Below are positions 16,241-38,209 of a stretch of DNA of 53,242 nucleotides, piece by piece. Positions within the stretch are counted from its first letter, which is position 1. Each line of letters begins with the position of its first letter. Origin of the DNA: Deltaproteobacteria bacterium (GTDB lineage: Bacteria > Desulfobacterota > Syntrophia > Syntrophales > UBA2210); NCBI GenBank assembly GCA_016933215.1, contig JAFGBH010000012.1, forward strand, positions 1-53,242, given 5' to 3'. The notes below the pieces were generated by a model. That model had not been told where the DNA came from. It saw only the letters and a program-made list of their open reading frames with translations, and searched no databases. A program made the translations under genes and the position numbers.

Positions 16241-16657
16241 TTATAAAATTATGTCGTCCCTGCCCAGTTCTTTCAGCGTCTCTACATAGAGTACAGCAAC
16301 CTTTTTGAGCTTCGGGGCGAGTTTCAGAAGCCCTGTTGCCGAACCCTTGACCCTGATCTTTTTCCGGGTGATGGCCATAACGGGATTGAGCTTATTCGAC
16401 CAGGACCTGTGCGCGTCATCGGCTGAGAGACTCATCGTCAGGTTAGGTTCATCATCGGGTTTTCCGGGTCCCGTCTTGAGTTCACCTCCACGACAGTCGA
16501 CCCAGAAGGAACAGTCGGGACCGTCCTGCGTATAGTCAAACCATATCAACTGATTCACCTTCTTTAAACCGCCGCTCAGGTCGGGATCCTTAAATCCTTT
16601 TTCAAAGAGTTTTACAAAAGCCTCGATTGGTTCATTTGCATCTTTCCAGTATTCCAT
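16241..16657 (-). CDS. SCP2 sterol-carrier-domain-like protein
   Basis: A 138-residue soluble protein resembling the SCP2 lipid-transfer fold: a helical N-terminus followed by FWVDCRGGELKTGPGK, DEPNLTMSLSADDAHRSW and the typical C-terminal RKKIRVKGSATGLLKLAPKL. Members bind acyl chains or other hydrophobic ligands in a tunnel. It sits between Fe-ADH (18 bp upstream in transcription order) and the AOR (28 bp downstream), with AAGGAGG before its ATG. I infer that it holds or presents a hydrophobic substrate to the neighbouring enzymes; no catalytic residues are evident. Confidence 0.75.
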   Translation of the reverse strand: MEYWKDANEPIEAFVKLFEKGFKDPDLSGGLKKVNQLIWFDYTQDGPDCSFWVDCRGGELKTGPGKPDDEPNLTMSLSADDAHRSWSNKLNPVMAITRKKIRVKGSATGLLKLAPKLKKVAVLYVETLKELGRDDIIL

Positions 16658-16675: not shown

Positions 16676-17869
16676 TTAAAATGCTTTCAGGTAAAGGTTT
16701 AAAATATCTTCCTCCTCCAGATAGCGAGGATTATAGCTTATCTGTGAATCTCCCCCCGCAAGTTCAGCCAGGGACTGAAGCGACTCATTATCCTCGGGGA
16801 TATTGAGATCCTTAAGGGTCTCGGTGAGGCCGATGTCCTTTTTCAGGTCTTTCACGGCCTGGACAGCGGCCATACCAGCCTCCACGGGGTCCATGCCGTT
16901 CACATTGATACCCATGGCGTCGGCGATCATGAGGAACCGGAGCGGCACCTCTTCAACGTTGAATTCCATGACAATTGGCAGCATGATGCCGTTGCCGAGA
17001 CCGTGGGGAATCCCGTACCTTCCGCCGAGGGCATGAGCTGTTGCATGAACCGCTCCCGTCATGGTGTTACCGAAGCATAACCCCGCCAGCGAGCTTGCGA
17101 TAAGCATATGACCTCTTGCTTCAATATTGTCGGGCTCTTTTACCGCGATGGGAAGATATTTGAAAATCAATCGTATTGCGTGGAGACCCATTGCATCGGC
17201 AATCGGTTCCGCGCCGGTTGACGTGATACCCTCCACGGCGTGTGTCAGCGCATCCATGCCGGTAAAGGCTGTTATCTTGGGCGGGAGGGCCACCGTCAAC
17301 TCCGGGTCCAGCATGGCGATGTCGGCGTTGTAAGGATGGGTAATGGCGAGCTTTGTTTCGTTTTCCACATCCAGTGCCACGATCGCATTGGTTACTTCGC
17401 TTCCTGTTCCCGCCGTGGTGGGAAAGGCGATATGCGGCGGTAAGGGTTTCGCGCCTTCCCAGAGAGCCGCCTCTTCAGCAAGGGGCTGAAAGTCATCGAC
17501 CTTCCTGCCGATCATGATATTGACGGCCTTTGCCGTATCCATGACACTGCCGCCGCCAACGGCGATCAGGCAATCGGCACCGCAGTCACGATAAAACTTT
17601 GCCCCTTTGTTGATAACCTCAATCCTGGCATCCTGAACGATTTCGTCGAAAATGCCCACCAACTCCAGATCGGAGTCCCTTACCGCTTCTGCAACCATCT
17701 CAGCGACGCCGGCATTGACGAGGCCTTTATCGGTATAAATAACAGCCTTGGTGCCACCCAGCTCACCCAATTCAAAACCGATCTCGGATCTTACTCCCGG
17801 TGCGTACATAATTCGCGGCCTGTTGAACCAGGAAAAGAAAGGATCAAATTCAATATCAGGATATTTCAT
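16676..17869 (-). CDS. Iron-containing alcohol dehydrogenase
   Basis: NAD(P)-dependent group III alcohol dehydrogenase of 397 residues. Motifs: the cofactor site AVGGGSVMDTAKAVN, PTTAGTGSEVTNAIV, MDALTHAVEGITS, and the metal-binding histidines in TGAVHATAHALGGRYGIPHG. ATG 17869 is chosen because the protein begins there in the family and a purine-rich AAGGGGGGGGAAC precedes it; the frame is open for another 127 codons, but that part lies across the divergent riboswitch and is not coding. First gene of the operon with SCP2-like and AOR genes. The substrate is an alcohol of unknown chain length. Confidence 0.92.
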   Translation of the reverse strand: MKYPDIEFDPFFSWFNRPRIMYAPGVRSEIGFELGELGGTKAVIYTDKGLVNAGVAEMVAEAVRDSDLELVGIFDEIVQDARIEVINKGAKFYRDCGADCLIAVGGGSVMDTAKAVNIMIGRKVDDFQPLAEEAALWEGAKPLPPHIAFPTTAGTGSEVTNAIVALDVENETKLAITHPYNADIAMLDPELTVALPPKITAFTGMDALTHAVEGITSTGAEPIADAMGLHAIRLIFKYLPIAVKEPDNIEARGHMLIASSLAGLCFGNTMTGAVHATAHALGGRYGIPHGLGNGIMLPIVMEFNVEEVPLRFLMIADAMGINVNGMDPVEAGMAAVQAVKDLKKDIGLTETLKDLNIPEDNESLQSLAELAGGDSQISYNPRYLEEEDILNLYLKAF

Positions 17870-18037: not shown

Positions 18038-18066
18038 TTGACATCCTGCTTTGTCTTTGATTATAG
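18038..18066 (+). promoter_or_regulatory. Promoter of the riboswitch-controlled cobalamin operon
   Basis: TTGACA (18038-18043), a 17-base spacer, TTATAG (18061-18066). Transcription would begin about 18073, some 35 nt ahead of the riboswitch aptamer, which fits the expected order promoter, aptamer, gene. Confidence 0.65.
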
Positions 18067-18107
18067 TTTTCTTCAATAGTTTCGTTGTACTGAGAAAAGC
18101 CAGAATG

Positions 18108-18253
18108 CGGATGGGCGTGAGGAAGAGGGGTGTAATTCCCCCGCTGCCCCGCAGCCGTGAAGGGAACGAAAGCCAGATAAGCCACTGTTTTGCGTAGGCG
18201 GAATGGGAAGGCTGGTGAGTAGGCTGCCCTGAGCCGGAATACCCGTTCATCCG
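18108..18253 (+). promoter_or_regulatory. Cobalamin riboswitch
   Basis: Adenosylcobalamin-class aptamer. Closing stem P1 can be drawn as CGGATG (18108-18113) with CATCCG (18248-18253). Conserved blocks in order: GGTGTAATTCCC (18129-18140), CCGCTGCCCCGCAG (18141-18154), GCCACTG (18181-18187), GGGAAGGC (18205-18212) and a B12-box-like GAGCCGGAATACC (18231-18243). The leader from 18254 to 18369 is the presumed expression platform; I see no clear U-tailed terminator in it, so translational control is as likely as premature termination. It should switch off the transport genes when cobalamin is plentiful. The 17870-18369 gap is thus filled by the Fe-ADH promoter region, this promoter and the riboswitch. 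Confidence 0.93.
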
Positions 18254-18369
18254 GGAATCCTCGAGGGAGGCGCATCATAGAGGAAATCATTCTTCTTAGA
18301 GCCTTGGTACCAATAGTGTAAGTAGATATTGTCCGCCTGAACGGGGCAAGTTTGTCGGGATTTCGTATA

Positions 18370-30895: not shown

Positions 30896-30982
30896 GCCGA
30901 AGGGGCGGAATTGGTAGACGCGCTAGGTTCAGGGTCTAGTGGGCGTATGCCTGTCCGGGTTCAAATCCCGGCTTCGGCACCA
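30896..30982 (+). tRNA. tRNA-Leu (anticodon CAG)
   Basis: An 87-nt class II tRNA with encoded CCA. The acceptor stem is GCCGAAG with CTTCGGC, discriminator A, then CCA at 30980-30982. Anticodon stem CTAGG/TCTAG encloses loop TTCAGGG, giving anticodon CAG (reads CUG). A long variable arm (GGC..GCC) and T-arm CCGGG-TTCAAAT-CCCGG complete the fold. It is the integration site of the element to its right, and stays intact because the element carries a copy of the 3' end. Confidence 0.97.
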
Positions 30983-32171
30983 TAGCATGTGAATGAGGCG
31001 TAATCTCAGAAGGTTGCGCCTTTTCTGTTTTTTCAGGGTGCGTATAGGGTGCGTCCGGGTGCGCGTCAAGTCGGTTTACGGCGTCCCTATTGGCACTCGG
31101 TATCAAGTGACCGTAAATGTCCACCGTCATTTGAATACTCGTATGTCCAAGCTGTTCCTTGACGTAAACAGGGCTTGCTCCATCGCTTAGCAAGAGGCTT
31201 GCATAGGTGTGTCGAAGATCATGCACCCTCATTTCTCGAAGCCCTGCAGTCTTCAAGACGCGCTTAAAGATGTAACGCACACTGTTCTGTGCGGTTGGAA
31301 TTCCATCGTGGTGAAAAATTGCTTCTTGAATTTTTCCCGTACCTTTCTTTAAAGCTTCCTTGTGGGTTTCGACGTAAAGGCTTCTGAGTGATTCTATGAG
31401 CTGTTCCGACATATCTACCCGCCGTGTTTTGCCTGTTTTGGTGGGCCCCATATTTCCCCGCTTATATGACCGCCGCACTTCAATAAACTTACTGTGCCAG
31501 TCTATATCCCCCCACCTAAGACCGAGAATTTCACCTAATCGCATGCCGGTGCGCAATGCACAGAGAAAAAGAGGGTAATAGTCCTTGTAACTCTGCTTGC
31601 ATGTTTCAAGGAAAAGGTGGACCTCTTCACGGTTCATTGGTTCGATTTCGCGGTTGTCTTTGGTTTTGAGTTGTAACCCTCTTGTCAGGCCGGTAACAGG
31701 ATTTGCCTGTATGATTTCATCGTCAAGCGCGTAGTTCATGGGACCGCTTATTGATGCGTGAACGATGCGAAGGATGCTTTTCGAGTAACCTCTATTGTGA
31801 AGTTTCAGGAGAAGGTTTCGCACTTCCTTGCGCCTAATATCCGTGATTTTCTTTTTGCCAAGGGTAGGGTAGACATACCTTTTTAGGGCGTCACCATATC
31901 GTTCATGGGTGGCGGGCCGCCTTACTGCCTTGATATAATCATTGAGCCATAATTCGGCATATTCCTTGAACGATGGGACATCTTCGGGGCCGCTTTCTTC
32001 CTGTTTTTCAATCTCGAATTCCCCAAGCGTTAACTTGGCTTCTATCTTCCTGGCAACCTCAAGTGCTGTTTTTTCATCACCGACCTTTTTGGATTTGCGC
32101 TTGCCCTTGTGGTTAATGAAAATCCACCATTCGCCGGAACCTTGAATTTTCTCTTTAACCTTTACTGCCAT
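30936..32171 (-). CDS. int: Tyrosine-recombinase integrase of the element
   Basis: Site-specific recombinase, 411 residues. Order: N-terminal AP2-like arm-binding region (VKEKIQGSGEWWIFINHKGK), SAM-like core-binding domain (about 75-165), then the catalytic domain with Arg in ALRTGMRLGEILGLRWGD, HDLRHTYASLL (His-x-x-Arg), LGHTSIQMTVDIYGH with the nucleophilic Tyr. ATG 32171 is chosen for its AGAGG site and because the domain begins there; the frame is open further upstream. The last ~15 residues (VPKPGFEPGQAYAH) are encoded by the antisense strand of tRNA-Leu, so the stop codon lies in host sequence and the natural C-terminus on the excised circle will differ. Confidence 0.93.
   Translation of the reverse strand: MAVKVKEKIQGSGEWWIFINHKGKRKSKKVGDEKTALEVARKIEAKLTLGEFEIEKQEESGPEDVPSFKEYAELWLNDYIKAVRRPATHERYGDALKRYVYPTLGKKKITDIRRKEVRNLLLKLHNRGYSKSILRIVHASISGPMNYALDDEIIQANPVTGLTRGLQLKTKDNREIEPMNREEVHLFLETCKQSYKDYYPLFLCALRTGMRLGEILGLRWGDIDWHSKFIEVRRSYKRGNMGPTKTGKTRRVDMSEQLIESLRSLYVETHKEALKKGTGKIQEAIFHHDGIPTAQNSVRYIFKRVLKTAGLREMRVHDLRHTYASLLLSDGASPVYVKEQLGHTSIQMTVDIYGHLIPSANRDAVNRLDAHPDAPYTHPEKTEKAQPSEITPHSHAMVPKPGFEPGQAYAH
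30966..30985. repeat. attL core (20-nt direct repeat, copy 1)
   Basis: TCCCGGCTTCGGCACCATAG. It covers the 3' T-arm strand, acceptor strand, CCA and three further bases of tRNA-Leu, and is identical to 38190-38209. Bases outside the 20 nt differ at once on both sides, which fixes the core. Confidence 0.93.
30996..31033 (+). terminator. Element-borne terminator just downstream of tRNA-Leu
   Basis: AGGCGTAA (30996-31003) pairs with TTGCGCCT (31014-31021; one G-U) around a 10-nt loop, followed by TTTTCTGTTTTTT. It lies on the element side of attL, within the 3' part of the integrase gene read antisense, and would end tRNA transcripts before they run through the integrase. Confidence 0.75.
31036..31063. 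promoter_or_regulatory. Three GGGTGCG repeats, putative integrase arm sites (left)
   Basis: GGGTGCG occurs at 31036-31042, 31047-31053 and 31057-31063, spaced 11 and 10 bases, about one helical turn. They lie 51 bp inside attL, within the integrase coding region. Related copies lie near the other end (38018-38024; 38097-38114), which fits arm-type binding sites. Confidence 0.45.
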
Positions 32172-32265
32172 TGGACCACCTCTTGAAATGGTTAAGGGGT
32201 CCAACCACTGCAACGAGGGGGAGCAAAGTTTCTTTGGTCCCGCTGCAACGGCGACCCCCTCTGTC

Positions 32266-32616
32266 TTATGCCTGGGCAACCAATGCTTTAATAGCATCGT
32301 AATGCGGCCCGCCTCTTTTTGCAACCTTAATGAAACCGTCAATCAATTCCTTTTCTTCCTCTGTCAACTCATAGGGTGCGCTCCTCTTTCTATCGTGTGC
32401 AGCATCGTCGATTTTCATGAGGTATCGTTCAAGTTCATCTACCTTGTCCCGCAGTTCGTAATAAAACCATGTCGCCCTTTCATCTTCAGGCTCAAGGTCT
32501 TCTTGGATAAAAGTTTCATCGAAAAGTTCCAAGAGCCATTGTATGGGTTTGATTCCCCATATAACGACCTCCTCCGCGCCTTTGCCGCCATTCCAATCAA
32601 TGTCTTTAAGTCTCAT
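32266..32616 (-). CDS. Small acidic protein of unknown function upstream of int
   Basis: A 116-residue acidic protein that I do not recognise. It is mostly helical in appearance (ELRDKVDELERYLMKIDDAA, LTEEEKELIDGFIKVAKRGG) and has no Cys and no membrane segment. A strong ribosome site GGGAGG precedes ATG 32616. It is the first gene behind the structured leader at 32643-32716 and precedes the integrase by 94 bp, so the two are probably one transcript. A directionality or regulatory role is possible but unsupported by any motif. Confidence 0.7.
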   Translation of the reverse strand: MRLKDIDWNGGKGAEEVVIWGIKPIQWLLELFDETFIQEDLEPEDERATWFYYELRDKVDELERYLMKIDDAAHDRKRSAPYELTEEEKELIDGFIKVAKRGGPHYDAIKALVAQA

Positions 32617-32642
32617 CGTTTAACCCTCCCTATCAAAAAGCA

Positions 32643-32716
32643 AAAACCCTTAAAGACTCTCTCGGTCCATAGGAACCGCCCGAAGCGTCACCGTTACGGG
32701 TGTCTTTAAGGGTTTT
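32643..32716 (-). other. Cloverleaf-like structured leader or attenuator of the int operon
   Basis: AAAACCCTTAAAGAC (32643-32657) and GTCTTTAAGGGTTTT (32702-32716) are perfect 15-base inverted copies. Between them lie two further helices: CGGT/ACCG (32662-32665 with 32674-32677, approximate) and CCCG/CGGG near 32679-32700, giving a three-way junction. On the minus strand the long stem is followed by TTTTTGCTTTTT and then the ribosome site of the gene at 32616, as in an intrinsic attenuator. It could equally be a replication origin structure of the element. Confidence 0.6.
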
Positions 32717-32758
32717 ATGTATGGTTCTTGTTTTCATTTTCCTATGGTTTAGAGATTA

Positions 32759-32836
32759 GCGTTATTACGTTATAGGTAGTATGCGTTATTGCGTTTTTTA
32801 AGTCAAGCGTTTTTCCATTGACTAATTAACGTTATT
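32759..32836. promoter_or_regulatory. Direct repeats overlapping divergent promoters
   Basis: GCGTTATTACGTT (32759-32771) and GCGTTATTGCGTT (32783-32795) differ at one base and start 24 bp apart; a partial third copy CGTTATT is at 32830-32836. On the minus strand a promoter TTGACT, 17 bases, CATACT overlaps the second repeat; on the plus strand TTGACT at 32818-32823 stands before the ribbon-helix-helix gene. The arrangement suggests operators of the small DNA-binding protein encoded at 32852. Confidence 0.5.
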
Positions 32837-32851
32837 TGATTATTTTGAATC

Positions 32852-33019
32852 ATGGCAAAAATTACCTACAACACACGTCTTGATGAAGAGCTTATCAAAA
32901 AATTCAAAATTCTTGCCATTGAGCGGGGCAAGCGGCAAAATGTGATCCTCGAAGAAGCTATCAGGGACGTTCTGAAAAAATACAAGAGGGAATTCAAAAA
33001 CCCATCACGAGCTAAGTAA
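32852..33019 (+). CDS. Ribbon-helix-helix (CopG/Arc-like) DNA-binding protein
   Basis: A 55-residue protein beginning MAKITYNTRLDEELIKKFKI, with the beta-strand then two helices (LIKKFKILAIERGK and VILEEAIRDVLKKYK) typical of the dimeric ribbon-helix-helix fold. Such proteins control plasmid copy number, toxin genes or phage promoters. There is no ribosome site before ATG 32852 and the candidate -10 region is only a few bases upstream, so the message may be leaderless. The direct repeats at 32759-32836 lie just upstream and are probable operators for self-regulation and for repression of the divergent int transcript. Confidence 0.72.
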   Translation: MAKITYNTRLDEELIKKFKILAIERGKRQNVILEEAIRDVLKKYKREFKNPSRAK

Positions 33020-33081
33020 TATAATGTAATGCTCCGAATTTCACTTACTGCATAATTTCGATTTCTACAGCATTTTCAGAA

Positions 33082-33828
33082 ATGTTAAAGAGGTGCAGAG
33101 AAGTGGGAAACTTAAAAGATTGGGATTTTGGAAACACCGAACTAAATTCTAAACAACAACTCATCAATAGACAAAAATCGGCGTTAAACGTTTCTGTAGT
33201 TGCATTAGACACGGAAAGTAAAGAGGGGGTGTTTTATGACCCCAAAAATGGAAGCGTGAGAGCAAATCTCAGTGCATGCGAGTGTTACGATTTCAAATAT
33301 GTGGGAAAATCACCCAGAAAAAAATTTACTCCATGTATGCATATTTATCGCTTAGCGATAGAGCTTGGCATGATGAAGGTAAGATATTATGACAAAAAAG
33401 CATTGGAAAGTTTATCCGTACTCCAAGCGTTGCCAAGGGATTTATCTAAGTGGGGTAAATGGAATCAAATCATTCACAAAGCTCGTCTTCAGATAGATAG
33501 ACAATTTAGGGCATACGGTATAGTTGATGATAATCAGATTGTAGATACACGGACTAAATCGGGAATTATTAACGGTTATGAAACAACATTAGATCATTGC
33601 ACTTGTCCAGACTTCGAAGAAAGGAAATTACCTTGCAAGCACATCTATTGTCTTGCTATTTTAACAGGATTATCGCTTGAATTAGATAGGGAGGAATATC
33701 AGAGAAGAAAAGAAGAATATGAGAGAGAATTCACTCCTTTTATTACAGTCAGAGCCAATATAAATAAAAGACAAGTAGTTGCTTCTGCTTTGAGAAAGGG
33801 TCTTGCAAAATTATTTGACAAGAAGTGA
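33082..33828 (+). CDS. Protein with two SWIM-type zinc-finger motifs
   Basis: A 248-residue protein of unknown function with two CxCx(n)CxH motifs: CECYDF..PCMHIYRLAIELG (about residues 68-93) and CTCPDFEERKLPCKHIYCLA (about 173-192). These match the SWIM finger used for DNA or protein contacts. The two halves look like a duplication separated by a helical segment. No ATPase, nuclease or integrase core is visible, unlike most SWIM proteins, which carry a large enzymatic domain. A/T-rich codon use sets it apart from the chromosome. The start is uncertain (ATG 33082 or GTG 33103). It is the only element gene besides the ribbon-helix-helix gene on the plus strand and is a candidate cargo gene. 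Confidence 0.75.
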   Translation: MLKRCREVGNLKDWDFGNTELNSKQQLINRQKSALNVSVVALDTESKEGVFYDPKNGSVRANLSACECYDFKYVGKSPRKKFTPCMHIYRLAIELGMMKVRYYDKKALESLSVLQALPRDLSKWGKWNQIIHKARLQIDRQFRAYGIVDDNQIVDTRTKSGIINGYETTLDHCTCPDFEERKLPCKHIYCLAILTGLSLELDREEYQRRKEEYEREFTPFITVRANINKRQVVASALRKGLAKLFDKK

Positions 33829-33927
33829 TAGAAATCAAGATATCTATGTTAAAAAACAGATCTTAAATTTAGGACAATAGACCAAACCACAACTAAATTG
33901 AGCGCCATTTTTCGGTTAGGCGTCCTA

Positions 33928-33954
33928 CGTGAGTATCTCACGAAACGTTGTTTC
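33928..33954. promoter_or_regulatory. Two adjacent small palindromes between convergent element genes
   Basis: CGTGAG-TAT-CTCACG (33928-33942) abuts GAAAC-GTT-GTTTC (33942-33954). They lie in the 241-bp gap between the SWIM gene and terS. They may be protein-binding sites or the base of a transcript end; there is no T-run. Nothing else stands out in the gap. Confidence 0.35.
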
Positions 33955-34069
33955 ATCATAAGTTTTCTTCCGGTAATTACAACCTGCTTCTGGCCGGTTG
34001 TTATCGCACCATTTGCCCAATTTTCAAAGATCGATTTTCTCAGTTTTAAGAGTATTCTTTACAATGCTA

Positions 34070-34549
34070 TTATACTTTTCCCATCTTCCCCATGGCTTTC
34101 TTCAAAACCCCGCTCGGTCTACTGTAATTCTCCATCAATTGACGTAATCGCTTTTCAACAAACATCCGTTCCTCGCTTCCCGGCTTCATCTGCTTTGGGA
34201 TGTTCAGCAAATCACGCTTCAAAACATGAATCCTTGCCACAAATTCATTCTTCACATCTTCCCGAAACATCAACTCGCCCTGCCTTAAAAGAAGCTCCAA
34301 TTCCTTCAGCTTTCGTTCGGCCATGAGTTTTAAACGTCTTTCTTCTATCAGAGTGGTGTCCATTGTCTTAGATCCAACACGGTTATCTTTGAACCACCTG
34401 ACACTTTCCAGGAGTGGATATTTACCCCTGCCATGCTTCGGGAATCCTTCAGATACCCATTCTGAGAGAGTTGACCGCGAAATATTAAGAAGCTTACAGG
34501 TGTCATTTGTTGACAAAACCACATTTTCAACACTTTTTATGATCTGCAT
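34070..34549 (-). CDS. terS: Terminase small subunit, Nu1-like
   Basis: A 159-residue DNA-packaging recognition protein. An N-terminal winged-helix/HTH (LSTNDTCKLLNISRSTLSEW, WVSEGFPKHGRGKYPLLESV) is followed by a long helical segment (ERRLKLMAERKLKELELLLR, QGELMFREDVKNEFVARIHV, LKRDLLNIPKQM) of the Phage_Nu1 type. ATG 34549 is preferred because AGAGGAG precedes it; the upstream 11 codons are unlikely. It is the last gene of the element's replication operon. No large terminase, portal or capsid gene is in the element, so it would work only with a helper phage's machinery. The family call is from motif memory and should be tested by profile search. Confidence 0.78.
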   Translation of the reverse strand: MQIIKSVENVVLSTNDTCKLLNISRSTLSEWVSEGFPKHGRGKYPLLESVRWFKDNRVGSKTMDTTLIEERRLKLMAERKLKELELLLRQGELMFREDVKNEFVARIHVLKRDLLNIPKQMKPGSEERMFVEKRLRQLMENYSRPSGVLKKAMGKMGKV

Positions 34550-34661
34550 AATAATTCTCCTCTCTTGTTGTTTGTAAGGCAAAATATTTCATCACGAGCG
34601 AGCGAGGGCCGCGCTACGGGAAACTGCAATCTCTTTTCCTCTGGGAAGGACCCATAAACCT

Positions 34662-35462
34662 TTAATCATCCCAGTATCTCCGCTGTGGCCGGTGCTGATT
34701 TGAATCGGGGTCAACATTCCGGTCTGTCGTTTCGAAAAGATAATGCCCCTGCTTCTCAAGCCAAACTTTTTTCTGCAAAACACCCGTTCTTCTGTGCTGA
34801 TTGATCTGCAGGCAGGCCACATTATCCCCGATGTCGGGAAATCTCTTAATCATGAACGCGGCATCGCTTTCCTGTTCAACAAAGCTACTGTCCCTTATCT
34901 CCCCAAAACCGTCATTTCCCTTCTTGGTGTGACACATAAGAAAGATAATCAGGTTTTCCCGGACGGCTAAGAGCTTCAGCTTCCTGATTACCATTCCTAT
35001 CTCGATTGACGGGTTGCGGGTGCGGGCCATGTCAACAATGTAGTGTAGGTGATCTAAGAATATAATCCGGGTCCTGTATTTTTGAAGGCTTTCGATAATC
35101 CTGTTTTCCAACCAGTCAAGGTTAGCTGCCTTTAGTATGCGTGGCATGTATATAAGGGGAAGGTCATCAAAGCATGATAAAAACTGTTGTGGGGGAAGTT
35201 CAAAAGAGAACCAGAGAGAAAAAACCTGCTGATCGTGAAAGTTCCTTGTTAGCGTTTGGGAAAAGAGGCTCTTCCCGTTCTTGGTGAGTCCGCTTACAGC
35301 AATAAGCTCCCCAGGAACAAAACCATCAATCAGCTTATCAAGTGTCGGGATCTTGCTTTTAACTTTAAAAAGATGCTTCTGATTCTTTACGATCTCCTGC
35401 ATCTCAAAGGATGTGATGATTTTATCCTCTCTGTCATATTTACTTAAATCAACTTGGTTCAT
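34662..35462 (-). CDS. DnaB/RepA-like RecA-fold ATPase (replicative helicase type)
   Basis: A 266-residue ATPase of the RecA/DnaB-C family. Walker A is GLTKNGKS (GxxxxGKS), Walker B RIIFLDHLHYI, then CHTKKG as the DnaB-type H motif and a C-terminal segment QINQHRRTG. It lacks the DnaB N-terminal domain and so is a short phage- or plasmid-type helicase. ATG 35462 overlaps the previous stop in ATGA, with GGAG eight bases upstream, which fixes the start. It presumably acts with the initiator-like protein at 35796 to replicate the excised element. Confidence 0.8.
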   Translation of the reverse strand: MNQVDLSKYDREDKIITSFEMQEIVKNQKHLFKVKSKIPTLDKLIDGFVPGELIAVSGLTKNGKSLFSQTLTRNFHDQQVFSLWFSFELPPQQFLSCFDDLPLIYMPRILKAANLDWLENRIIESLQKYRTRIIFLDHLHYIVDMARTRNPSIEIGMVIRKLKLLAVRENLIIFLMCHTKKGNDGFGEIRDSSFVEQESDAAFMIKRFPDIGDNVACLQINQHRRTGVLQKKVWLEKQGHYLFETTDRNVDPDSNQHRPQRRYWDD

Positions 35463-35803
35463 TGCAGCCACTCCGGTAGTTGTTCTTTGTAGAGGTCTTT
35501 CAGTTCCTCCTGTTCAATTCTTATAAAATACTCGCAGTATTGACGGATAAAACCGTCGTCCATCGTTTCCTTCATGTCTACCAGTAAACCAATGTCGCAT
35601 TTCAAAAACTCGATACTGTCTTTGATGTCCTCTCGCCATGCTTCCCGAAGCTCATCAAGGAAAGACCCCTCTCGCTCTTCCCCATATTCACGCACCTGAT
35701 AAATCGCTTCCACAATCCATCTTTGCATAACTGGATTGTCACAGTGTTCATCATACAGCCTTTCAAGCTCATCCTCTTTCAAGGGGAATTGTTTATTATT
35801 CAT
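35459..35803 (-). CDS. Acidic protein of unknown function in the replication operon
   Basis: A 114-residue, strongly acidic, probably helical protein (EDELERLYDEHCDNPVMQRW, REYGEEREGSFLDELREAWR). I recognise no domain. The start (ATG 35803, or GTG 35806) overlaps the end of the initiator-like gene, and its stop overlaps the helicase-like gene, so translation of the three is coupled. Placement between initiator and helicase genes suggests a helicase-loader or accessory role, by analogy with phage replication modules; this is only inference. Confidence 0.7.
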   Translation of the reverse strand: MNNKQFPLKEDELERLYDEHCDNPVMQRWIVEAIYQVREYGEEREGSFLDELREAWREDIKDSIEFLKCDIGLLVDMKETMDDGFIRQYCEYFIRIEQEELKDLYKEQLPEWLQ

Positions 35804-36515
35804 CACCGGGCCTCATCATTTCAGCTTCATCAATATATCTAGCCCAGTGAGCTTTTCTAAAAAGGGTGTCCGGGTGAAAGTATTTTGGATTGTCTATGAA
35901 ATATTTGTCCTGGGATTTAGTAACGATGATTCGGCAACACTCATATACGGAGCCGCCGTCTTTCAATCTAGCAATGATGTTCTTATCGCTTGTAATCGGT
36001 CTTAGCTTTTTACTAACTAACTTTTCTCGCTTTTCATTTAAAAGTTCTAAAACCTCTTTTATTCCATCTTCAAGAAGGACTTTCTCATTACCATGATGGA
36101 GGATATATATACTCTTTTCCTTCTTATACATTCTTGTCTGTGGCACTTTGTTGGCAGGTTGCTGGTCGTTTTGTGGGTCGTCTTCAGATTCACCACCCTG
36201 ATAAGTGCCCCAATTCACTATGGTAATTACCGAAAATCTGTTGGTCGTTTTGATGGTCAATATTTTCCAGTTTTTCAGAATGTCAAGGCCTGTACGGACT
36301 TCCCGCTCACTAAGCCCTGTTTCCCTTGCTGCTACACGTCTTCCGAAGATAAATTGCCCGGGTTCAAGTATGATTTCCTGATTCCCTATAATAGCCTTGC
36401 GTTGCTTGTGTGATGCCTTTAAAAGGCAATATGTAAACAAGACCCAAACATTATGATTTCTTAAGATACCGCTGTCCAAGGATCTGCGATATAGTTTAAT
36501 CCAACCTCTGTTCAT
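35796..36515 (-). CDS. Phage-type replication initiator (O/DnaD-like)
   Basis: A 239-residue protein with an N-terminal winged-helix region (GWIKLYRRSLDSGILRN, FGRRVAARETGLSEREVRTG, LDILKNWKILTIKTTNRFSV) common to phage replication proteins, a low-complexity Gln/Asn/Asp linker (about 110-135), and a C-terminal segment ending NPKYFHPDTLFRKAHWARY that resembles the conserved phage C-terminal/DnaD-like domain. It overlaps the upstream small gene by four bases (ATGA) with GGAG nine bases before ATG 36515. Expected to bind the element's origin and load the helicase-like ATPase. Confidence 0.75.
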   Translation of the reverse strand: MNRGWIKLYRRSLDSGILRNHNVWVLFTYCLLKASHKQRKAIIGNQEIILEPGQFIFGRRVAARETGLSEREVRTGLDILKNWKILTIKTTNRFSVITIVNWGTYQGGESEDDPQNDQQPANKVPQTRMYKKEKSIYILHHGNEKVLLEDGIKEVLELLNEKREKLVSKKLRPITSDKNIIARLKDGGSVYECCRIIVTKSQDKYFIDNPKYFHPDTLFRKAHWARYIDEAEMMRPGDE

Positions 36516-36703
36516 AAAGCGTACTCCGCGGGATCTTCAAAGCGAGCTTCCATCAATTGAGTCAACTCTTCCTCGGTGATTCGGACGCGTCCCCTTTCCC
36601 CTGCAAGCTCCGCTATCAATAAAAAGATATTTGCAGCCATAGGGTTATTTTCAAAAATTCTATCGTATCTTTTCTTAAATCTTCGATTCGGTTTGAAGGT
36701 CAT
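36512..36703 (-). CDS. Small conserved phage-type protein of unknown function
   Basis: A 63-residue protein with a basic start (TFKPNRRFKKRYDRIFENNP) and an acidic end (ITEEELTQLMEARFEDPAEY). I recall similar short proteins in proviral regions of related bacteria, but their function is unknown to me. It overlaps the replication initiator gene by four bases and lies 16 bp behind an HTH gene, so it is a genuine member of the operon. Confidence 0.7.
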   Translation of the reverse strand: MTFKPNRRFKKRYDRIFENNPMAANIFLLIAELAGERGRVRITEEELTQLMEARFEDPAEYAL

Positions 36704-36719
36704 CTTTCACAATCCCGGA

Positions 36720-36941
36720 TTAACTAAGGTCACTGACCACCTCTTCAACGATCTGATCAACACAAGATTCCCCCACCTCGAAGGATTCAAGGAATTTGTC
36801 GATCTCAGAATATTTTACAAGAACTGTTCCACTGGGAAGACGCGAATATCTCAAGCCTTCACGCAACCACTTGCGAAAGGTCCGCTCTTTAACGCCTGCG
36901 TAGGGTGCAGCCTGTTTGACTTTTGCCCAGCCTCCATTCAT
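36720..36941 (-). CDS. Small HTH protein (excisionase/MerR-like)
   Basis: A 73-residue DNA-binding protein. AAPYAGVKERTFRKWLREGL followed by RYSRLPSGTVLVKYSEIDKF is the winged-HTH pattern of excisionase and phage Alp-like regulators. No good ribosome site precedes ATG 36941, but it starts nine bases after the stop of a similar HTH gene and is probably translated by coupling. May control excision or the replication operon. Confidence 0.75.
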   Translation of the reverse strand: MNGGWAKVKQAAPYAGVKERTFRKWLREGLRYSRLPSGTVLVKYSEIDKFLESFEVGESCVDQIVEEVVSDLS

Positions 36942-36950
36942 GTCTGTTTG

Positions 36951-37142
36951 CTAGGTCCTTTTGATTTTATGAGCTTCCATGTAATCGTGAAGGTCGTTAA
37001 CGGCATACCTAACCGATCGCCCCACCTTGGTGTAATTAAATGCTTTTCCTTGACTTCTCCAGTTTCGTAGAGTCTGCACCGACACCCCGGTGATCATCGA
37101 TGCCTCATTTTCGTTTACCCATCGCTTAACTGTATAATTCAT
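36951..37142 (-). CDS. Small HTH protein (AlpA/excisionase-like)
   Basis: A 63-residue protein with the HTH_17-type pattern: VNENEASMITGVSVQTLRNW, then KVGRSVRYAVNDLHDYMEAH. Such proteins act as excisionases or activate integrase genes in P4-like satellites. GGGAG precedes ATG 37142. It is the first gene of the seven-gene replication/packaging operon that runs down to terS, and the 172-bp A/T-rich gap upstream (37143-37314) should hold the promoter. Confidence 0.78.
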   Translation of the reverse strand: MNYTVKRWVNENEASMITGVSVQTLRNWRSQGKAFNYTKVGRSVRYAVNDLHDYMEAHKIKRT

Positions 37143-37314
37143 CTTTTATTCTCCCTTCAAAAAGCGACTTATAAAGGTATTATGTTTGTCTTGTTATTTA
37201 CCCTTAAATGTCTATGTAATCAAGTAGTTAAGTGAAAAATAGATTGACGTGAAAGGCGTTTTTACACAAAGCTGAAAATATTAGGCAAATTAAAGAATGT
37301 TAAGATAAGGAGGG

Positions 37315-37950
37315 CTAACTTTTTCTTAATTGTGATTGTATTTCGTAGAAATTTCTTTCGAGGTATCTGACTTTTCCAATCGAATAAGTTACTTTCGGTT
37401 GGATTTGTGGGTTTGTGATGTTTAATAATTCAGCAATAAGTGAAAATACGTCTTGCTGCGTGAAGCCCATTTCCTTAGCTGGTTTTATGAAAACAGCAAG
37501 AAGTATGTGCACAAGCATTCCTAACTGCTGGTTTGCCGTTTTCAGCCGTGGATTAATGCCCAATGTTTTTAAGACGTTTTCATACAGGGTTTTTTGATCA
37601 TTCATTAGAGAATACCTGTTCTCAAATCTACACAAGACGGATTCTAATACATCTCGCTCATCGTCCCTTATGAGTCTGTCAGCTTTCTTCAAGAAGCCTT
37701 TAAGGAATCTTATACCGTATGAGTAACGATCATTGATCTCTTTTAGCTTTTGCGATAGTTCACCGTAACGGAAGGACTTCGTTTCAGGGCGAAGTGGTCC
37801 CGTCAAATGCATTCTAACTTCTTCTATGGCAATCCCTTTGCTTATAAGCGCATTTAATAAAGCCTTGTTTTTAACTCCGGAAATTGATGAAACAAGATCT
37901 CTGTCACGATCCCACTTACTAAAGTCATATTTTGCTTTCTTTTTTGGCAT
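37315..37950 (-). CDS. Unknown helical protein at the right end of the element
   Basis: A 211-residue basic protein that I do not recognise. It opens MPKKKAKYDFSKWDRDRDLV and is rich in charged helices (DRLIRDDERDVLESVLCRFE); there is no signal peptide or membrane segment. ATG 37950 is preferred (GGTGG upstream) over 37977, which has a C-rich upstream. It is separated from the operon behind it by 172 bp of A/T-rich DNA and is the last gene before attR, the position often used for cargo or a repressor. No defence, toxin or repressor motif is visible. Confidence 0.65.
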   Translation of the reverse strand: MPKKKAKYDFSKWDRDRDLVSSISGVKNKALLNALISKGIAIEEVRMHLTGPLRPETKSFRYGELSQKLKEINDRYSYGIRFLKGFLKKADRLIRDDERDVLESVLCRFENRYSLMNDQKTLYENVLKTLGINPRLKTANQQLGMLVHILLAVFIKPAKEMGFTQQDVFSLIAELLNITNPQIQPKVTYSIGKVRYLERNFYEIQSQLRKS

Positions 37951-38189
37951 ACTATCCACCGCCCGATAGTACCGCATTGTTTAAGGTGGGGGGGAAACCG
38001 TGCGGTCTTCGGCTTTCGGGTGCGCTCCCTATCCCCCCACAACACGAAAGGGATATTACTTATTAGATTCTATCATCTTTGCAGATCCTTGCAAACAGGT
38101 GTGTATAGGGTGCATTTTAAGACAAAATATTAGCACTTTCCAAAATACCAAGCCTAACAATATCAAATAGTTAAGCATTACCGAGTCAT
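37951..38189. other. Non-coding right end of the element with putative arm sites
   Basis: 239 bp without a gene. It contains GGGTGCG (38018-38024) and AGGTGTG-TATA-GGGTGCA (38097-38114), the latter matching the left-end GGGTGCG-TATA-GGGTGCG with 11-base spacing in the same orientation. A poly-G run lies at 37987-37993. Probably the attP right arm where integrase and excisionase bind. Confidence 0.5.
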
Positions 38190-38209
38190 TCCCGGCTTCG
38201 GCACCATAG
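38190..38209. repeat. attR core (20-nt direct repeat, copy 2)
   Basis: TCCCGGCTTCGGCACCATAG, identical to 30966-30985. To the right the host chromosome resumes with a terminator that must once have followed tRNA-Leu directly. Confidence 0.93.

Follow-up and report, generated by a model that had tools for sequence, protein, structure and literature searches.

We found that the 74-base hairpin structure at positions 32643-32716 of the window (the whole 53,242-nt stretch of DNA analysed here) is real and, as judged from comparison of homologous sequences, a member of an undescribed structured-RNA family. This family, which is unregistered, sits at operon starts in phages and phage-like islands of Syntrophales and their relatives. 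Regulation is the likely role of the leader RNA, and we put at about 50% the chance that it acts as a translation-coupled transcription attenuator of phages and satellites.

A three-way junction on the minus strand

Folding the minus strand yielded, as minimum free energy (MFE) structure, a three-way junction with two hairpins inside a 15-bp stem whose arms are 100% complementary over 15 nt (Table 1), just as the original prediction, made from the sequence alone, had described it. Its energy of -33.9 kcal/mol compares with -18.8 +/- 2.9 kcal/mol for dinucleotide shuffles of the same strand (n = 200; z -5.2, 0/200 equal), bearing out the claim that the structure is far beyond chance, and the T-rich tail and ribosome site expected behind it are both in place, the latter (GGGAGGG) ahead of the ATG at 32616 of a 116-aa ORF. 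The proposed extent was too short, as the feature starts at about 32755 (E1) and not at 32716. As the plus strand of these 74 nt folds about as well as the minus strand, single-sequence energy leaves the strand open and homologues were needed; these point to the minus strand, where the P2 loop is GNRA in 34/34 aligned members (GUGA 23, GCGA 9, GCAA 2), and covariance-model matches on the opposite strand score far lower. A repeat element or CRISPR-like family was ruled out, the structure being single-copy in its own genome.

Table 1. Features of the leader RNA and its surroundings, in window coordinates.
Feature	Position	Strand	Basis
Candidate sigma-70-type promoter of leader, TTGACT-17-CATACT	32778..32806	-	consensus scan only
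E1 (UCUCU), partner of junction J3/1 (AGAGA)	32751..32755	-	permutation test, 34 members
E2 (CCAUAGGAA), 9-bp complement of P3 loop	32739..32747	-	permutation test, 34 members; later members
Leader ORF, 34 codons, spanning whole structure	32633..32737	-	AUG and open-frame counts
P1 5' arm	32702..32716	-	fold, inverted repeat, covariation
P2 hairpin, GUGA (GNRA) loop 32691-32688	32679..32700	-	GNRA 34/34; covariation
P3 hairpin; UUCCUAUGG (32675-32667) pairs with E2	32663..32678	-	covariation, permutation test
J3/1 (AGAGA), partner of E1	32658..32662	-	permutation test
P1 3' arm	32643..32657	-	fold, inverted repeat, covariation
U-tract, intrinsic-terminator-like end	32635..32646	-	6-8 T per 8-nt window in 47/48 members
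First downstream gene, 116-aa protein, family not assigned	32266..32616	-	SD 32630-32624
Tyrosine integrase	30936..32171	-	Pfam PF00589 E 1.8e-30
Divergent RHH/Arc-like repressor gene	32852..33019	+	phrog_3180 Arc-like repressor E 2.9e-11
Integrated satellite-like element at tRNA-Leu 3' end	30966..38209		20-bp direct repeats 30966-30985, 38190-38209

An RNA family of Syntrophales phages and islands

A search of 155 genomes of the order for the 116-aa ORF gave a single clear homologue, in a genome of the same family and also behind the RNA; no further relatives were found in the phages, plasmids, viral contigs or genome contigs searched. The homologue's leader adopts the same structure with different arms (AAAACCCCTGAAGAT/ATCTTCAGGGGTTTT), CCTATGG...GAGA being common to both, and a pattern scan gave a third copy on an IMG/VR contig, ahead of an unrelated ORF and an integrase. 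A covariance model (R1) built from these three copies matched 28/155 genomes of the order at E<=0.1, plus two other genomes of the phylum, and an improved model (R2) returned 33 loci in 27/155 Syntrophales genomes at E<1e-9, together with some 12 strong loci from 11/147 genomes of another class of the same phylum. Together the covariance models recovered about 45 members beyond the starting copies, with Smithella, Syntrophus, Syntrophaceae and 'Deltaproteobacteria' MAGs as the named hosts among the matches. One contig labelled Lentisphaeria (L048) is very similar to G075:C232, a locus of the order, and may be misbinned. When 71 chosen pattern-match loci, viral ones included, were screened with the model, 16 carried a member; most genome-contig pattern matches in GC-rich genomes look like chance, and the match at L014 was rejected as chance. 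Two short matches (G023, G042) and one with no clear E2 (G153/L039) were left out of the analysis or treated as doubtful. A further locus, L191 (G135:C67), holds two tandem RNA copies about 560 nt apart (16407-16484 and 16966-17044), the second weaker and with no clear E2.

The original prediction knew of no matching family, and this agrees with Rfam 15, which gave no match at the gathering threshold at the site; over the RNA itself, examined in nine members, nothing reached even E<=10. Searching phage records with the leader by blastn likewise gave no match, and a text search outside subscription papers and supplements found no published description of this RNA. The int-alpA RNA (RF02996), also a structured RNA of phages and islands, has a distinct consensus and occurs as a separate feature inside the 3-kb loci of two members (L030, 786-850, minus strand; L022, 2886-2952, plus strand). 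A tie between the RNA and the 116-aa protein was ruled out, as only one clear homologue of that protein turned up in the collections searched and the RNA precedes many different genes.

Covariation supports the fold

A covariance search with homologues, which the original prediction had proposed as a check, revealed two-sided changes in 23/26 pairs across 34 aligned members, with 95.4% of cells paired, in an alignment that was fitted to the model and so favours the structure. Under the same measures 0/500 shuffles reached any of these values, and sliding the partners by 1-3 columns lowered pairing to 41-53%. The three-way junction was also the unaided MFE in 43/47 members, and P2 showed two-sided changes at every counted pair. 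An 8-nt window with 6-8 T forms the U-tract in all members but one of 48, such that a stable stem is followed by a U-tract ahead of the first gene, the arrangement of a transcription attenuator. These comparisons establish the predicted P1-P2-P3 three-way junction ending in a U-tract, and they support the earlier suggestion of a structured RNA in the operon leader that is probably an attenuator.

A long-range helix links the 5' element to the P3 loop

Upstream of P1, starting about 20-36 nt (mostly about 30 nt) away, lies E2, which is complementary to the P3 loop, the best contiguous helix measuring 5-10 bp in every one of the 34 members analysed. Scores for this pairing averaged 17.6 with a member's own partner against 13.4 with permuted partners (sd 0.46, 0/10000), and those for E1, which lies just upstream of E2 and pairs with the GAGA junction, 12.5 against 11.2 (sd 0.33, 0/10000) over the same members. 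Complementarity to the loop was confined to the 60 nt upstream, with none further upstream or downstream, and pairing was kept in essentially every member despite more than 25 different E2/P3-loop sequences. A held-out set of 14 members, found later and mostly from another class, had new sequences in which pairing was seen by inspection in 13, for example UUCACAGUAAAA/UUUUACUGUGAA (L207), CACAAUAA/UUAUUGUG (L209) and CCACAGCAG/CUGCUGUGG (L213) for E2 and the loop and AUACCCAA/UUGGGUAU (L212) for E1 and the junction.

Because the 5' element E (E1 and E2) precedes P1 and pairs with a segment enclosed by P1, the covarying sequences demonstrate a predicted long-range helix, E1-E2 with the P3 loop and J3/1, of H-type pseudoknot topology. 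In the window, the helix between E and D (the P3 loop to the junction) has an energy of -18.2 kcal/mol and P1 a comparable one of -19.7 kcal/mol, and E:D can form while the P1 3' arm has yet to be transcribed. Since E:D crosses P1 as a pseudoknot and leaves both arms unconsumed, it does not look like a classical antiterminator. One genome (G067) carries three loci (L021, L043, L196) with three different E2s (CAUAGGA, CAUGGG, GAUAGG).

A short ORF runs through the structure

An AUG is present in the expected stretch in 41/48 members, in most of them 1-5 nt after E2. The frame that it opens stays open to the end of P1 in 34/41, as against 15/41 and 8/41 for the other two frames (Fisher p 8e-9, treating related members as independent). 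In the window the 34-aa ORF stops 2 nt ahead of the ribosome site of the 116-aa gene, and in some members it runs in frame into the next gene. The AUG is absent in about 7/48 members and several others have early stops, so not every member has an intact leader ORF. Members also differ in the register in which the RNA is read, and no conserved leader peptide or codon run was found across them; we take this to mean that translation, not a peptide, seems to matter. These counts support a putative short ORF running from just after E2 through P1-P2-P3 and ending beside, or in frame with, the first gene of the operon.

The host element and the gene neighborhood

The 7.2-kb element of the window contains the 116-aa ORF and, as judged by profile matches, the tyrosine integrase, the divergent Arc-like RHH gene and a SWIM-domain protein, along with a terminase-small-subunit-like protein, a DnaB-like ATPase, a DnaD-like loader and excisionase-like HTH proteins. 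The element is bounded by 20-bp repeats, of which the first overlaps the 3' end of tRNA-Leu (30896-30982). No capsid or large terminase was found among the element proteins scanned, and for this reason we call the element satellite-like; the tRNA-Leu island is a candidate phage satellite of Syntrophales. The SWIM zinc-finger protein (33082-33828) adjoins the RHH gene. Elsewhere in the window, a Cobalamin riboswitch (RF00174, 69 bits) lies at 18060-18264, upstream of a TonB-dependent-receptor-like gene.

Comparing loci across the family, a divergent small RHH/Arc-like ORF stood at nearly equal distance in about 31/35 (exceptions include contig ends), and representative proteins match Arc-like and other repressor PHROGs. 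The downstream genes vary, with an integrase first or second in about 13/35 loci, a serine resolvase in L024, and small uncharacterised ORFs otherwise. Given variable downstream genes beside a constant Arc-like neighbor, the RNA is not integrase-specific, and the original idea of a switch controlling integrase is too narrow. Two loci have large proteins downstream of the RNA, of 611 aa (L170, 3375-5207) and 633 aa (L048, 329-2227), with similar N-terminal regions; the 611-aa protein has no Pfam match.

A proposed attenuation mechanism and its alternatives

In the mechanism that we propose, a ribosome at the leader AUG would cover E2 and keep E unpaired and, travelling through the structure, would prevent P1 from forming, so that RNA polymerase would pass the U-tract and the operon genes would then be translated by coupling. 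With E paired to the P3 loop and junction, the leader start would instead be blocked, P1 would fold and transcription would end at the U-tract. The terminated RNA would retain its antisense portion (P3 loop and J) against E of new transcripts and could work in trans as well, providing negative feedback or immunity to superinfection like P4 CI and P1/P7 C4. Control of the promoter probably falls to the divergent Arc-like repressor. Against this mechanism count the members that lack the AUG or have early stops, and the fact that E:D leaves the P1 arms free.

A more tentative reading, to which we give perhaps half the weight of attenuation, makes trans-acting antisense immunity the main role: a terminated or processed RNA would bind E on transcripts still being made, whether by its own element or by an incoming one, as P4 CI and P1/P7 C4 do, and shut the operon, the cis pairing being incidental. 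The loop does display the complement of an upstream target adjoining a translation start, the paired sequence changes fast (the more than 25 types above) on a constant scaffold, and the setting is a phage or satellite beside an Arc-like repressor. However, the target is upstream only, with no second one downstream, and a cis helix is always there to compete. Loci with the same E2 and P3 loop also coexist in two genomes (G151, at L027 and L044; G139, at L036 and L090), which argues against strict immunity types, although G151 and G139 may be MAG assemblies. Just as tentative is the idea of a new class of phage/satellite immunity RNA, in which a pseudoknotted leader would end its own transcript and then repress in trans in a sequence-specific way. 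The specificity would come from the fast-changing E2/P3-loop code on a constant scaffold, which occurs in many different elements alongside an Arc-like repressor.

The remaining explanations fare worse than attenuation or trans immunity. A plain intrinsic terminator with decoration, insulating the operon without any regulated switch, would account for the strong stem with its U-tract and leave unexplained the GNRA hairpin, the P3 loop, the long-range covarying helix and the leader ORF, and we consider it improbable. Riboswitches commonly combine an H-type pseudoknot with a terminator-like stem in a 5' leader, and this is the topology observed here; yet a ligand-sensing riboswitch, its pseudoknotted junction binding a metabolite or ion to control termination, seems very unlikely, as the downstream genes have no common metabolic theme, little sequence is invariant enough for a pocket beyond the GNRA loop and the G/A-rich junction, and the paired loop belongs to the parts that vary most.

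A DNA-level element, with E2 and the P3 loop as inverted operator copies or the inverted repeat as a replication or recombination site, is similarly hard to credit: E2 and the loop are inherently inverted repeats, but the GNRA loop on one strand in 34/34 members, the covariation of P1, P2 and P3, the U-tract and the leader ORF all speak against it. The origin structure offered by the original prediction finds no support on similar grounds, as GNRA loops, U-tract, downstream ribosome sites and a translated-looking leader ORF point to an RNA. Comparing G-U with A-C mismatches, which would separate RNA pairing from a DNA inverted repeat, gave too few internal mismatches and is compatible with a DNA element as well, so it is the other features that argue for RNA. 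An identical E2 can be found next to different RHH subfamilies (L036, L090), and one subfamily next to many E2s, a mixture that argues against E2 and the loop as the repressor's operator. A better operator candidate is a separate CGTTATT-type repeat between the divergent promoters (32760-32835), where the repeats CGTTATTACGTTAT (32760-32773), CGTTATTGCGTT (32784-32795) and CGTTAT (32830-32835) resemble an operator to which the RHH repressor would bind.

Comparison with known phage RNAs and significance

By analogy, the leader RNA would work most like the P4 CI and P1/P7 C4 RNAs, with some points shared with IsrK. Rho-dependent termination and RNA processing are characteristic of P4 immunity, whereas the leader RNA ends in its own intrinsic-terminator-like stem and differs in overall structure. 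The leader RNA resembles the P4 CI RNA (seqA/seqB/seqC immunity; discussed in PMC4825925) in its satellite setting, in being a structured operon-leader RNA, in carrying an antisense segment against a seqA-like target further upstream on its own transcript, and in the control proposed for it, an early stop of transcription coupled to translation. Unlike P4 CI, which has seqA upstream and seqC downstream, the leader RNA has an upstream target only; a seqC-like second target downstream was looked for and not found.

The C4 RNA of P1/P7 is a small phage RNA whose loops are complementary to ribosome-binding-site sequences in the same operon (PMC12197685), and this C4 antisense RNA (RF01695, with c4-a1b1) is also listed in PMC2864571. 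Here the P3 loop similarly pairs with E2, which ends 1-5 nt short of the leader AUG in the same operon, but cmscan gave no RF01695 match up to E 10, the target is upstream only and a U-tract is built in. IsrK of Gifsy-1 (PMC4825925) is a leader sRNA with a terminator, a readthrough mRNA isoform, an upstream ORF and translational coupling. The leader RNA has a terminator-like end and an upstream ORF as well, with readthrough and translational coupling proposed; unlike IsrK, whose short form activates translation, it has a different structure, different hosts and no Rfam match.

What emerges is a well-supported structured RNA family that has no Rfam entry, tied to an apparent decision region of phages and satellites in bacteria with little-studied phage biology. 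Its covarying code between loop and 5' element makes regulation, and perhaps specificity, directly testable.
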